DNA of 53,618 nucleotides from Clostridiales bacterium. GTDB lineage: Bacteria > Bacillota > Clostridia > Oscillospirales > JAAYOS01. This document shows positions 28,604-34,577 of this stretch, one piece after another. The stretch lies in assembly GCA_012520195.1 (NCBI GenBank), contig JAAYOS010000064.1:1-53618 (forward strand). The letters are read 5' to 3'. The notes under the pieces were generated by a model. The model ran no database searches. It saw nothing but the letters and a program-made list of their open reading frames with translations, and was not told where the DNA came from. The position numbers and the translations under genes were made by a program. How positions within the stretch are numbered: position 1 is the first letter of the stretch; each line of letters starts with the position of its first letter.

Positions 28604-28691
28604 ACATCAGCACTGAAAAAACATCAGCACTGGAAAAAGCATTAGCACTGGAAAAAACATCAGCATGTGAGAAAACATTAGCGCTGGAAAG
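28604..28691. repeat. Five-unit 18-bp minisatellite in the monooxygenase leader
   Basis: Five units of 17-18 bp (28604-28620, 28621-28638, 28639-28656, 28657-28674, 28675-28691) share the pattern ACATCAGCACTGGAAAAA with one to five changes. It is non-coding on the minus-strand transcript and lies between promoter and start codon. A short plus-strand ORF through it is an accident of the repeat. Confidence 0.9.
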
Positions 28692-29310: not shown

Positions 29311-30078
29311 ATGGAAATCGAGAAAGGTGACGTATCCGCTGACGGTATTATTGAGGGGCGCAACCCTGTTATTGAAGCACTGAAAGCCGGGCGAAAGATA
29401 GATAAGCTATTTGTCATTCAGGACACAAAAAGTTCACTGATGCGTGAGATAGTAAACAGGGCAAAGGAATCAGGCGCTGTTATTGTCGAAACCGACCGAA
29501 AGAGACTCGATAAAATGAGTGTCACAAGAGCGCATCAGGGAGTTATCGCATACACTCCGATAAGAGAGTACTCGACAATCGAGGAGGTTTATGAAAGTAG
29601 CCGCAGTAAGGATAAACCCCTTCTCCTTATGGTCTGTGACCACATTGAGGACCCAAACAATTTGGGTGCGATCATTCGAACTGCTGAGGCCTCTGGTGCT
29701 GATGCAGTGATTATCCCCAAGCGTCGCTCTGCAGGGCTTACAGCTGCTGTCTCTAAGGCATCGGCTGGTGCACTGGAGCACATGAAGATTGTGCGTGTGA
29801 GCAATATAGCCGGGTTTTTGAGAAAGATCAAGCAGGACGGTGTCTGGATATTCGGGCTGGATATGGACGGAGATAGGACGATTTATAACGCCGACTTTAC
29901 ACTTCCGGCAGCTATAGTCGTCGGATCTGAAGGGGCAGGTATAAGCAGAACAGCACTGAGCGAGTGTGATTTTATTACGTCAATTCCTATTATCGGTACA
30001 GTTTCATCACTCAATGCCTCTACAGCAACGGCAATTGTTCTATATGAGGCGTTAAGACAGAGGATGACTAACAAATAA
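29311..30078 (+). CDS. rlmB: 23S rRNA 2'-O-methyltransferase RlmB (TrmH/SpoU family)
   Basis: 255 residues, ATG with TTGGGGG upstream. The SPOUT-family enzyme methylates the ribose of a conserved guanosine in 23S rRNA. The N-terminal substrate-binding part contains GIIEGRNPVIEAL; the trefoil-knot catalytic domain has DHIEDPNNLGAIIRTAEASG, VVGSEGAGISRTAL and PIIGTVSSLNASTATAIVLY. The usual neighbours (cysS, mrnC) are absent. Confidence 0.94.
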   Translation: MEIEKGDVSADGIIEGRNPVIEALKAGRKIDKLFVIQDTKSSLMREIVNRAKESGAVIVETDRKRLDKMSVTRAHQGVIAYTPIREYSTIEEVYESSRSKDKPLLLMVCDHIEDPNNLGAIIRTAEASGADAVIIPKRRSAGLTAAVSKASAGALEHMKIVRVSNIAGFLRKIKQDGVWIFGLDMDGDRTIYNADFTLPAAIVVGSEGAGISRTALSECDFITSIPIIGTVSSLNASTATAIVLYEALRQRMTNK

Positions 30079-30107
30079 GCATGTAGATAAAGATATATAT
30101 TTATTAG

Positions 30108-30137
30108 GACACATTAAGACACATTAAGACATATCAA
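30108..30137. repeat. 10-bp tandem repeat upstream of the pseudo-ATPase gene
   Basis: GACACATTAA occurs at 30108-30117 and 30118-30127, followed by the related GACATATCAA at 30128-30137. The 10-bp period places copies on one face of the helix; the gene start is 60 bp downstream. Confidence 0.7.
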
Positions 30138-30196
30138 GATATTTAGATAGTGAACAGCATTGGACTGTATTAAATTTTCGGCAATGGGTGAGACGG

Positions 30197-32707
30197 ATGT
30201 CTGAGAAAAACAACAAATACCATATGGATAAGGGATTTGATGAAGGACTAAATTCTCTTGATGCTTTTGGTAGTGATTTTTTTGACACAGTGAGCTCAGA
30301 GACTGTGTCGGTCGATTCATCAGAGCTTCTAATCGATGAGATACTCAGAGAGTTCGGTTCTCAGGAGAGCAGACACAGCCAACAAATCGACTCTATCGAT
30401 GATGAGGTTGCCAATATACTAAAGTCTGTTCGGCTGAGTTTAGAAGAGGAGATGGCCGAAACTTCTGAAGGTGTATTAGACGACGTCGAGAGTATATCGG
30501 AGACTCCTGTCCACAGAGATAGTGGAAAGGGGTCCGAACCGTTTGTAGAGAAAATTGCCGTCAATGAAGCATTGCAGCCACCTGCGGACGACGGCGAAAC
30601 TTTGGAAAATAGTGCACCTGCACAGAAGGTAAAGGTAATCTCGGAGGGTGACAGTAGTCCCATATTCGGGGATGATTTCGCAAAGTACTTCGGCCCAAAC
30701 GCAGGACTCGCCGCAGAGATAGAGATATTCGAACATGAGGACGAGATTCATGACGATGGCGGTAAAAGTCGGACGCTGTTCAGAAGAAGGCGTAAAGAGA
30801 AGAAAAATAAACACTCCCTTGATGAAGGAGTGGAATACATAAACTCAGACACCATCGATGCGAATACGTCAAAAATGGATACCATCGTTCCCGATCTTGA
30901 TGCAACTTCCCCCGATTTCGATGCAACCGGAGATGAGTCACCAAGTGTTGGCACAAGGAGAAAACGCTGGCGAAGAAGTAGAGTAGCCGAACAAGACGAA
31001 GTCTCCGATGGAGAGTTAGATCCAGATTTCGGGACTGAAGATTTTGAAGAGATTTCCGATATAGATCCTGAAGAAGCAGCAAAGGCCATTATTGAAGATA
31101 TGGGACTAATCAGGGTAAAGCTGTTTTTTGGTGCTATTCTCTGTGCAGTACTGCTTTACTTGAATATCGCCCCGAGAGCAGGCCTTTTCCTACCGAAATC
31201 GCTCTCATATGTGTCAAACCCGGGTGTATATCTTTTTATATGTGCATGCCTCCTTATATTCATAATGATTATGTGCATAAAAACTGTTGCAATAGGTATA
31301 AGAGACTTCCTACTCCTCAAACCTAACATGGAGTCAGTTGTGGCGCTTTCTTGTGTGTTATCAATTGCCCATACAATAAGCATTTTACTCATGCCACAAT
31401 GGGAGGGCTATTACCCATATACTGCTGTCAGTGCAACATCATTGATGTTTGCGGAGTACGCACGGTATAAGTCGCAGACAGCACGCGTTAGGACCTATAA
31501 GGCGGTTTCGGCGATGTCGCGGCCATACCTTGTGTCCTGTGAGAACAGTATCTATTCGGGACAGGATGCCGCTGTTAAGTACAGAGTAGCGGAACCTCTC
31601 TACTTTGTTCACCAGACCGAGAGGAAGGACATGGCGACCAAGGTGTGGACGTATGCGGCACCGTTAGTAATAGTGCTTTCTATTGTGTGTGCAGCCGTAT
31701 CTTCGATTGGTAAAGGTCAATCACATCGTTTTATATGGGCATTATCTGCGATGATGACAGTAGCCGCACCATTTTCTATATGTCTATCGTACAGCCTCCC
31801 TTTCTCTAAAACCGCAAGGTCTTTAGGATTGATGGGGCATGCGGTTGCTGGATGGAGCGCTGCCGAAGAGATGTCATCCATTGACAGCGTAATAATATCA
31901 GATACCGATCTATTTCCGCCGGGAAGCATAGTACTAAACGGACTAAAAATATATGGTGGTTACGCAGTAGATAAAGTTATATCATACTCAGCCAGTCTTA
32001 TTGCGGCATCTCACTCAGGTGCAACAAAACCTTTCCTTGATTTACTACATGACCAGGCCGCAACTCAGCATAAGGTAATTGGTTTCCAATACTACGAGAA
32101 CGGGGGTATCGGCGGTGAAATCGGAGGGGAGAGCGTCATAGCCGGTAACGCCACCTTCATGTTAAGGACGGGTATTCGGATACCTAGGGATGTAAGTGTT
32201 AAGAACGCCATATACATAGCTATAAACCATGAACTGGCAGGAATATTTGCAGTTAACTATAATGCTAATACTGGGATAAAAAAGGCCCTGAACATGCTCA
32301 TAAAAAATGGACTGAACCCAGTCCTTGCAATCCGAGATTTCAATATTACACCTGCAATGTTAGAATCAAAGTTTAACATTTCGTCTGACATAGCGGATTA
32401 TCCCCCGATTGAGGATCGTCTGTCACTTTCCAATCCCGACCGTATTTACACTTCAAAGCCTCTTGCGGCGATTGGAAGAGAAGGCCTCACACATTATGCG
32501 GAGAGCATCGTGCTTGCTAGAAACCTAAAGAGAGCAACTCGGATTAGTATTGGTATTACACTTGCGAGTATCATTATAGGCATGCTGCTAATGTTTTATC
32601 TGTTGTACTCCCATTCGCCTGTACAGGCATCGCCGTTTAACCTGCTGCTGTACATGGCATTCTGGTTAATTCCCAACCTGATTGCGGCTAGATGGGCCAA
32701 AATGTAG
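30197..32707 (+). CDS. Catalytically degenerate P1B-type ATPase homologue with long acidic N-terminus
   Basis: 836 residues from the ATG at 30197 (GGGTGA 4 nt upstream; a GTG three codons earlier is possible). Residues 1 to about 300 are polar, acidic and probably disordered. From about 305 the layout follows heavy-metal P-type ATPases: paired helices, a LLKPNMESVVALSC block like the usual GNMDTLVAL, an FAEYARYKSQ helix, then helices ending in AAPFS (523-527) where CPC is expected. The phosphorylation motif DKTG is DTDL (569-572), the AGNATFMLRTG block matches the nucleotide domain, TGD is replaced by AIRDFN, and GDGxNDxP is missing. The actuator domain is almost absent. It should bind but not pump; function unknown. 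Confidence 0.8.
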   Translation: MSEKNNKYHMDKGFDEGLNSLDAFGSDFFDTVSSETVSVDSSELLIDEILREFGSQESRHSQQIDSIDDEVANILKSVRLSLEEEMAETSEGVLDDVESISETPVHRDSGKGSEPFVEKIAVNEALQPPADDGETLENSAPAQKVKVISEGDSSPIFGDDFAKYFGPNAGLAAEIEIFEHEDEIHDDGGKSRTLFRRRRKEKKNKHSLDEGVEYINSDTIDANTSKMDTIVPDLDATSPDFDATGDESPSVGTRRKRWRRSRVAEQDEVSDGELDPDFGTEDFEEISDIDPEEAAKAIIEDMGLIRVKLFFGAILCAVLLYLNIAPRAGLFLPKSLSYVSNPGVYLFICACLLIFIMIMCIKTVAIGIRDFLLLKPNMESVVALSCVLSIAHTISILLMPQWEGYYPYTAVSATSLMFAEYARYKSQTARVRTYKAVSAMSRPYLVSCENSIYSGQDAAVKYRVAEPLYFVHQTERKDMATKVWTYAAPLVIVLSIVCAAVSSIGKGQSHRFIWALSAMMTVAAPFSICLSYSLPFSKTARSLGLMGHAVAGWSAAEEMSSIDSVIISDTDLFPPGSIVLNGLKIYGGYAVDKVISYSASLIAASHSGATKPFLDLLHDQAATQHKVIGFQYYENGGIGGEIGGESVIAGNATFMLRTGIRIPRDVSVKNAIYIAINHELAGIFAVNYNANTGIKKALNMLIKNGLNPVLAIRDFNITPAMLESKFNISSDIADYPPIEDRLSLSNPDRIYTSKPLAAIGREGLTHYAESIVLARNLKRATRISIGITLASIIIGMLLMFYLLYSHSPVQASPFNLLLYMAFWLIPNLIAARWAKM

Positions 32708-33373
32708 TCAGAGAATGTACTTCAGCAGTGCCAAAACTGCGAGATGCGCAGGATAGTATACGTAAAAGAAATATCTGGGGCCCTCTCCCTTCTTGCCGTT
32801 ATAGAGCGATAGAAGGGGGAGGGCTCCAATTGTTGCAGCTTCAATAAGAAAAGTAAAGTCTCTACTCGCGATGGCAGTCAGGGCGTACGAGAAAAGCTGC
32901 ACAAATACAGTAACTATAAATGCCACAGCCTGACGTTTGAAATTATTGCGAAATCTATAGAATACAAGCACATACAAAACGCCAAAGACGGCCCAGTCAC
33001 AGAATAGGGAGAGGTATAGAAGAGAAAGACCAAGTAGTAATCTTAGGTGCCTCTGGAGCTGGCTCTGTTCAATCGAGATAATTAAAACTGCTATTGCCAA
33101 GGTAAACATTATATTAAGGTTTGTCGATTTGAACGTGACCATAAATGGAACTTGTGATATTGAAGCAAAGATTAGTAACCTTAGCAAATACCTCTTGACG
33201 CTCCGTGTGTATTTGTATCCTTCAGCAACAAAAAACGCCATTATGGGCATTGTAAGTCTTCCAATCAGACGCATCCAGAGCTCCGTTGGAAAAAAGACAG
33301 CTGCTATGTGATCAACTGTCATTGCAGCGATAGCTATAATCTTAAGAGAGAATCCGTCCAGCTTTTGCTTCAT
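32708..33373 (-). CDS. TraX-family polytopic membrane protein
   Basis: 221 residues on the minus strand, ATG with AAGGTG upstream. The TraX family (named after the F-pilin acetyltransferase) shows LKIIAIAAMTVDHIAAVFFP at the N-terminus and RLIGRLTMPIMAFFVAEGYK; about eight hydrophobic segments follow and HLAVLALLKYIL closes the protein. In Firmicutes the role is unknown and probably acyl transfer to a surface molecule. Its stop codon directly abuts that of the convergent pseudo-ATPase gene. Confidence 0.9.
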   Translation of the reverse strand: MKQKLDGFSLKIIAIAAMTVDHIAAVFFPTELWMRLIGRLTMPIMAFFVAEGYKYTRSVKRYLLRLLIFASISQVPFMVTFKSTNLNIMFTLAIAVLIISIEQSQLQRHLRLLLGLSLLYLSLFCDWAVFGVLYVLVFYRFRNNFKRQAVAFIVTVFVQLFSYALTAIASRDFTFLIEAATIGALPLLSLYNGKKGEGPRYFFYVYYPAHLAVLALLKYIL

Positions 33374-33476: not shown

Positions 33477-34577
33477 TTACTTTGGGGTATTCCTGTTAAG
33501 CGTATTATGCGCAGTTTCAAACTCGTCTACTGTCAGTATTTCTGCAAGTTCAAACAATGCTGAATCAAAACTGCTGCCCACAACGACCTCTTCCGCCTTT
33601 AGTGTGCGCGCCTTTTTTATCGGGAGAGATATCGTAACATCAGTCCCATCATTGACCTTGCTTGCCAATGCTGCGTTTCCTCCATGTAGGAGAGCTATCC
33701 TACGGACGACTGCGAGTCCGAGGCCAAAACCGCCTGAGAGTCTTGGAATTTTATGTGTCCTGTAGGTCCGAAAGATATCTGATATTTCCGATTGACTGAT
33801 TCCGCAGCCGTTGTCTGAAACTCTGAGAAAGCATTGGTCGGCAGAGAAACGCAAACTCACATAGATCCTATTTCCTTCTCTGGTATATTTTGCTGAGTTG
33901 CATATCAAGTTCATTACTGCTCGTCTGATTAGTTGGCAATCGGCCATTATTATGCAGGAGCTCTGTTTCGTATGAAACTCAATCGGAATCCCAACAATAT
34001 CAAGTATAGTCCGGGCTGAAGAGACGATCTCATTACAGAGTGATACTATGTCTGTGTTCATAAAAAACATCATGGGAGCCTGACTTCCAAGACGAACAAA
34101 ATCTGAGAGGTTACTAATCAGACGAATCATCTGGTAACCGCATTTTGTAACGTAAGGCGCATTTTTTCTATTCGAGAAAAGCAGGGGAGCGATTTGCTTA
34201 CGCACCTCTGTTGAAAAACCAAGGAGAGAGGAGGAAAAGTCTATATCGATTTCTTCATCCCCGTCTCGCAGTGGTGTAAAAATATATAGTGTTGGAACGC
34301 CTCCGTATGCATTAAGAATACAGTTTACCCCGAAAAAACAACAGTCTGCAAGCGAGAAGCACTCATGTAGATTGTGTGGTTCAATGCTTAACTCGGACGC
34401 TTTACTGAAGATATCTTCACCAATAATATCATATATCAGCTCCCCCTGAACATTTGTTCCGATTATCTCTATAGCTGATCTATTTGCATATATTATTCGA
34501 TTATTTTCGGTTGCGAGGACGAAATTGCTAGAAGTATTGTATCCTTCGAGAAGGTGTCTGTAATCAATGTTTTGCAT
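33477..34577 (-). CDS. Soluble PAS/HATPase sensor-kinase-like protein lacking the H-box histidine
   Basis: 366 residues, ATG with GGAGGATCT upstream. No transmembrane segment. A PAS-like N-terminus (FVLATENNRIIYANRSAIEI, residues 19-38) leads to a dimerisation helix and a well-kept HATPase domain: N box NLICNSAKYT, G1 DNGCGIS, G2 GGFGLGLAVV. Where SHEIRTPL is expected, STEVRKQI is found (S122-I129), so the phosphorylated histidine is T123; no other histidine lies in the helix. No response regulator is adjacent. It could be an ATP-binding sensor, an anti-sigma-like serine/threonine kinase, or a non-catalytic partner. A tail of about 50 residues follows the ATPase domain. Confidence 0.85.
   Translation of the reverse strand: MQNIDYRHLLEGYNTSSNFVLATENNRIIYANRSAIEIIGTNVQGELIYDIIGEDIFSKASELSIEPHNLHECFSLADCCFFGVNCILNAYGGVPTLYIFTPLRDGDEEIDIDFSSSLLGFSTEVRKQIAPLLFSNRKNAPYVTKCGYQMIRLISNLSDFVRLGSQAPMMFFMNTDIVSLCNEIVSSARTILDIVGIPIEFHTKQSSCIIMADCQLIRRAVMNLICNSAKYTREGNRIYVSLRFSADQCFLRVSDNGCGISQSEISDIFRTYRTHKIPRLSGGFGLGLAVVRRIALLHGGNAALASKVNDGTDVTISLPIKKARTLKAEEVVVGSSFDSALFELAEILTVDEFETAHNTLNRNTPK

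Follow-up and report, generated by a model that had tools for sequence, protein, structure and literature searches.

The window, that is, the whole stretch of 53,618 nucleotides that was analyzed, contains a plus-strand gene for a protein related to P1B-type ATPases, hereafter called the pseudo-pump, which is preceded by rlmB (Table 1). Two start codons are available for the pseudo-pump gene, a GTG and an ATG. The ATG is the more likely start, because the methionine that it encodes, M4, is invariant across the full-length alignment of homologues and because a GGGTGAG stretch is located just 5' of it. Residue numbers are nevertheless counted from the GTG, such that residues 523–525 of the initial annotation correspond to 526–528 here; the coordinates proposed there, as well as the claim of a frame intact over 836 codons, were found to be right. 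No terminator-like site was found on the plus strand in the gap between rlmB and the pseudo-pump gene. A 10-bp tandem repeat, ATTAAGACAC, is present in 3.7 copies inside this gap (30103–30139), and an 18-bp tandem repeat, ACATCAGCACTGGAAAAA, is present in 4.9 copies upstream of rlmB (28604–28690). On the other side, a convergent gene encoding a TraX-like acyltransferase (32708–33373, minus strand) ends directly at the stop codon of the pseudo-pump gene. A PAS histidine kinase is encoded beyond it (33477–34577, minus strand), and a similar kinase is encoded downstream in L034.

Table 1. Genes and features of the pseudo-pump locus. Positions refer to the window and residues are counted from the GTG codon.
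Feature	Position	Strand	Basis or remark
rlmB, 23S rRNA Gm2251 2'-O-methyltransferase, constant upstream partner gene	29311..30078	+	TIGR00186, 224.7 bits, above cut-off
Intergenic gap between rlmB and the pseudo-pump gene, 118 bp to the ATG	30079..30196	+	Sequence
Pseudo-pump ORF, GTG start	30188..32707	+	839 aa
Pseudo-P1B-ATPase CDS	30197..32707	+	836 codons from ATG; GTG 30188 is the alternative start
N-terminal acidic arm (residues 4–290), predicted disordered	30197..31057	+	Charge, AF2
Conserved short motif LLIDEILREF (residues 47–56)	30326..30355	+	Family consensus FSLDDILAEF
Helices MA, MB, M1, M2 (residues 294–441)	31067..31510	+	AF2 secondary structure
Actuator-domain stub (residues 442–477), single beta-hairpin without TGE loop	31511..31618	+	AF2, profile alignment
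M3 and M4 (residues 482–549)	31631..31834	+	AF2 secondary structure
Site of the CPC metal motif, here A526-A527-P528	31763..31771	+	Alignment
Former phosphorylation loop S571-D-T-D-L-F-P-P-G-S580, replacing DKTGT(I/L)TEG	31898..31927	+	Profile alignment
N (nucleotide-binding-like) domain (residues 581–692), HP motif lost	31928..32263	+	2kmv match, conservation
P domain, second part (residues 693–766), GDGxNDxP hinge deleted	32264..32485	+	Profile alignment
I715-R-D-F-N (IRDFN), replacing TGDN	32330..32344	+	Profile alignment
M5 and M6 (residues 767–836)	32486..32695	+	AF2 secondary structure

The protein consists of a disordered acidic arm of about 290 residues at the N-terminus and a complete P1B-type core with membrane, P, and N domains. 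The ordered core (residues 296–839) was modeled with AF2 from 56 homologues (pLDDT 92.9, pTM 0.88), and the predicted fold is unmistakably P1B. The best match of the model among solved structures is CopA from L. pneumophila (4bbj, Z 24.6, 484 of 544 residues), with further matches to 3rfu (Z 24.1) and ATP7B (Z 22–23), and the N domain aligns with the isolated Menkes N domain (2kmv) at an rmsd of 2.0 Å over 113 residues. A Foldseek search with the core model returned copper P1B pumps (E 5e-19), and profile-profile alignment of the 56 homologues with real pumps covered 512 columns (prob 99.5, E 4e-22). No Pfam family matches the protein and NCBIfam yields P1B matches below threshold only, TIGR01525 scoring 31.6 bits (E 8e-8) at a cut-off of 346.25. 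All eight helices of the P1B membrane layout (MA, MB, and M1–M6), as well as the P and N domains between M4 and M5, are present in the AF2 model and its PDB matches, which together with the profile alignment upholds the proposal that the order and spacing of the helices are those of heavy-metal ATPases. A CopA-like P-x-N-M-[DE]-S-[LV]-V-A stretch was aligned in the MA–M2 region. Across the order, judged from the names of relatives to be Oscillospirales-type Clostridia, conservation among the cytosolic domains is highest in the N domain. None of the eight membrane helices has been lost and the break in M4 persists, with conservation about equal to that of the rest of the core.

It is established for P-type ATPases that loss of DKTGT, GDGxND, and TGE abolishes phosphorylation, Mg2+ coordination, and dephosphorylation, and that the HP motif serves in adenine stacking. 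The initial annotation had read the CPC motif as AAP, TGD as IRD, the GDGxNDxP hinge as missing, and the actuator loop as nearly deleted. Each of these readings was reproduced: AAP occupies residues 526–528 and IRD residues 715–717, the entire hinge that coordinates Mg2+ is deleted, and the actuator domain is cut down to two strands (residues 447–466) with TGE absent in both the AF2 model and the profile alignment. The annotation had also equated DKTG with DTDL; the motif is indeed lost, but the ungapped profile alignment with real pumps places DKTGT on S571-D-T-D-L575, which rules out D572 as a retained phosphorylated Asp. The column of the phosphorylated Asp, S571 here, holds Thr in most relatives and Asp in some deep families, including members L024 and L031, but the hinge is absent from these two. 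Relatives carry A/S/T-A/S-A/P/S in the CPC column, and the SEHP nucleotide motif is S-H-S-G in the pseudo-pump and SGSG or SGxx in relatives. Neither of the metal motifs CxxC and CPC is retained in the pseudo-pump. Among the roughly 120 members of the order that were inspected, none has an intact DKTG, GDGxND, or TGE in its core, and the sole DKTG string sits in the N-terminal arm of L024/L164. With no acceptor loop, no hinge to bind Mg2+, and no TGE loop, the classical phosphorylation cycle cannot run, and the pseudo-pump is therefore not a classical pump. It was not classed as a P1B ATPase because features that define this class were searched for and found to be missing. The P1B-1 copper-exporting ATPases (CopA; 3rfu and 4bbj) are its best match in both sequence and structure and share the MA, MB, and M1–M6 layout and the P and N folds. 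Unlike CopA, the pseudo-pump lacks the CxxC metal domain, CPC, TGE, DKTGT, HP, TGD, and GDGxND, and it has a hairpin actuator, a long disordered N-terminal arm, and linkage to rlmB.

Homologues were identified by searching genomes with a family profile. At E ≤ 1e-40, this search resulted in a homologue in 272 of the 295 genomes of the order (216 of 226 if only good-quality genomes are counted), essentially as a single copy per genome. Named relatives that encode the pseudo-pump belong to Papillibacter, Pseudoflavonifractor, Flavonifractor, Lawsonibacter, and Intestinimonas (Oscillospiraceae and related Clostridia). A sample of 197 genomes from the phylum but outside the order gave no matches at E ≤ 1e-35, and the best 18 matches outside the order, which were checked, are all true pumps with intact DKTGT and GDGxND. 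All of the pseudo-pumps fall on one side of a single branch (SH-aLRT 100), apart from the real pumps, and their clade sits on a long branch. The dN/dS ratios of close pairs, calculated by the simple counting method of Nei and Gojobori, are 0.03–0.08 for the core and 0.06–0.20 for the arm; one more distant pair gave 0.27 for the arm, with the core saturated. These low ratios mean that the gene is under strong purifying selection. One full-length homologue, L026 (G030, f22), contains a single in-frame TGA, which may stem from a genuine break of the frame, an error in the assembly, or recoding.

If the pump gene had died only recently in the Clostridiales genome under study, the missing motifs would be explained, and they are the only evidence in favor of this scenario. 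Its probability is negligible: homologues in about two dozen families lack the catalytic motifs, which refutes it, and the dead clade is order-wide, with intact frames, low dN/dS, and a conserved operon position. No intact DKTGT was found in the inspected homologues, and the view of a maintained pseudo-pump rather than a decaying gene is borne out by strong purifying selection acting across the order on one clade. On the basis of homology, loss of catalytic residues, and purifying selection across the clade, the protein is a pseudoenzyme derived from P1B-type ATPases. Given this selection, a new job is probable, likely one of holding or sensing partners.

The residues around the former active site were compared within the pseudo-pump's part of the order. 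In 76 homologues, D574, F576, P577, G653, Y691, R716, D717, N719, P722, and R744 are invariant, the set D572, D574, R716, D717, N719, and R744 is nearly invariant, and E637, G639-G640, and G653 are near-invariant along with the DxD/RDFN/R744 set, which argues that the old catalytic site was rebuilt rather than eroded. The invariant set is looser in the deeper families, where the DxD and R744 positions are lost. The retained D572/D574/R716/D717/N719/R744 set could represent a ligand site that has been kept, and nucleotide binding is predicted to be possible since the fold of the N domain is preserved, with GxGI-like and G-[NST] positions.

No bacterial precedent for a dead P-type ATPase family was found in the open-licence literature, the nearest parallel being human TMEM94/ERMA, which has a P-type fold in which DKQGI replaces DKTGT, GSSANL replaces GDGVND, and TGES is absent (PMC12134183, PMC13322241). 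One group observed neither ATPase activity nor Mg2+ binding for TMEM94, whereas AMPPCP was bound with micromolar affinity and not hydrolyzed (PMC12134183), and Mg2+ uptake by ERMA was reported by another group (PMC13322241); the functional reports concern Mg2+ and the ER only and are disputed (PMC12134183, PMC13322241). The pseudo-pump and TMEM94/ERMA have in common the kept P-type fold, the degenerate DKTGT and GDGxND motifs, the lack of TGES, and lasting conservation. TMEM94/ERMA, however, is eukaryotic, has ten transmembrane helices and a full actuator-like domain (CTD1), and is nearest to Ca2+ pumps (SPCA), whereas the pseudo-pump is bacterial and P1B-derived, with eight helices and no actuator domain.

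Two explanations draw on this parallel. The pseudo-pump could be a ligand sensor, with an N/P head that has kept the ability to bind a nucleotide or a ligand resembling phosphate and uses the arm for signaling, as might be suggested by the order-wide conservation of the N domain, the near-invariant residues described above, and the AMPPCP binding of TMEM94. This explanation is unlikely, as the HP motif is gone everywhere inspected and the loss of DxD and R744 from deep families leaves no single pocket across the order. Alternatively, the protein could still be a transporter or channel that is driven differently, as claimed for ERMA/TMEM94. Conservation of the full set of membrane helices, including the break in M4, would be in keeping with transport, as would the Mg2+ uptake reported for a protein with DKQGI and GSSANL (PMC13322241). 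Against transport, which we regard as improbable, M4–M6 show no obvious conserved transport site of polar or charged residues, the hairpin actuator leaves the classical cycle without its dephosphorylation arm, and for TMEM94 itself one group detected neither ATPase activity nor Mg2+ binding (PMC12134183).

Gene neighborhoods were compared across the homologous loci, and a locus was considered testable for rlmB linkage if at least 900 bp of upstream sequence was available. In all 89 testable loci, rlmB lies directly 5' of the pseudo-pump gene and on the same strand, with a median gap of 26 bp; the next-best conserved neighbor in the first survey was present at 21 loci. No gene downstream of the pseudo-pump is conserved across the loci surveyed. 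The initial annotation had raised the retention of neighbors in orthologues, which thus applies to the upstream side but not to the variable downstream side. Three genomes that contain rlmB and had seemed negative do have the pseudo-pump (3 of 3), linked to rlmB and present either as a divergent copy or as one truncated where the contig ends. In four good-quality members of the order (G351, G386, G374, and G413), neither rlmB nor the pseudo-pump was detected, for which an assembly gap or joint loss is possible, the latter because two of the four belong to one genus. In other Clostridia, different genes follow rlmB, and on visual inspection several of these resemble YacP or SigH. The tight spacing on the same strand leads us to infer that the pseudo-pump is co-expressed with rlmB. 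Conserved operons can mirror shared timing only, and the link to rlmB is a hint at translation or ribosome maturation and no proof.

A possible origin is suggested by a distant family of Clostridia (f43), 5 of whose 11 genomes (L222, L223, L241, L263, and L264) have a CopA-like P1B gene immediately 3' of rlmB. This gene has the same address and strand as the pseudo-pump gene. In the three genomes from which it was retrieved at full length, −3 to 10 bp separate it from rlmB, and these copies, unlike the pseudo-pump, encode all of the catalytic motifs and a CxxC domain and have no acidic arm. A direct sister relationship between the f43 CopA and the pseudo-pumps was considered and is unsupported, since this relationship is not resolved in the trees and the pseudo-pump clade is long-branched. 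Nor does the weakly resolved RlmB tree group f43 with the order, which leaves descent from an f43-type locus without support. Most likely, the ancestor was a CopA-type copper pump that became fixed beside rlmB before the order diversified.

Such an origin among the copper pumps would also suit a regulatory partner of active P1B pumps that pairs with CopA or ZntA, or competes for their regulators, and thereby tunes copper and zinc homeostasis. A true P1B pump is present above the cut-off in 116 of 118 genomes of the order, and the genome under study also carries true P1B pumps. P1B pumps are almost universal, so their co-occurrence with the pseudo-pump tells little, and one genome (G436, 97% complete) has the pseudo-pump with no P1B pump at E ≤ 1e-60. 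The gene is linked to rlmB rather than to copA or csoR, and both CxxC and CPC are absent, making such a partnership rather improbable.

The acidic region had been described as a tail of about 300 residues; its acidity (net charge −41, 25% D/E) and length were corroborated, and it proved to be an N-terminal arm instead of a C-terminal tail. In the full-length model its pLDDT is mostly 30–46, with the exception of a helix at residues 72–91 (about 77–80). The short motif in the arm has the family consensus F-S-[LIV]-[DE]-[DE]-I-L-x-E-[FY]; the strict regular expression matches 89 of 101 sequences, with near versions in several others, and the mean order-wide conservation of the motif is 0.49, compared with at most 0.41 for every domain. 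A degenerate DNA pattern for the motif matched in 15 of 59 genomes of relatives, mostly within the pseudo-pump gene. The possibility of a shared localization tag was rejected, as the matches are almost exclusively in the pseudo-pump and the few others are in unrelated proteins. Conservation of the motif fits a role of the arm in recruiting partners. The motif decays in families f16–f20 and is absent from f8 and f9, such that arm recruitment is not the whole function in those families. Arm length ranges from 13 to about 600 residues, with one f9 member almost armless, and acidity is not universal: of 49 diverse arms, 38 carry a net acidic charge. The arms of family f23 (L164, L181, and L183; about 440–600 residues) contain a second conserved stretch, D-D-I-Y-Y-G-L-[QK]-L-K-[SP]-L-E-E-Y-K.

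The death of the protein as a classical pump is well shown, and its present function can be proposed from sequence. Because the membrane platform, the P/N head, and the arm motif are kept and the gene appears to be co-expressed with rlmB, we favor a scaffold or receptor with recruitment through the arm, and on balance lean toward an ancient CopA copy that has become a non-pumping membrane protein of this kind, the arm recruiting a putative partner. A CopA-type copy next to rlmB would have lost the classical phosphorylation cycle, and pumping would have stopped. The membrane core and the rigid P/N head that it carries might then act as a platform or receptor, and the FSLDDILAEF-type helix of the flexible arm would recruit a partner or dock on the protein's own head. 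Production of the pseudo-pump would be tied to rlmB through co-transcription. More tentatively, the fixed rlmB operon and the lineage-specific arm motif raise the possibility that the family as a whole, ancestral to the order, consists of membrane receptors or scaffolds with a coupling to translation or to the maturation of ribosomes.

Aspartyl-phosphate chemistry is what defines P-type ATPases, and to our knowledge conserved dead members have hardly been described. The pseudo-pump family is order-wide and previously undescribed: throughout an order of abundant gut bacteria, a dead P-type member is retained as a single copy, is subject to strong selection, and occupies an operon position that does not vary. 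The family provides hundreds of natural sequences for asking what the P-type scaffold does without pumping, and, as a near-universal and lineage-specific membrane protein, the pseudo-pump offers a handle on the cell biology of the Oscillospirales.
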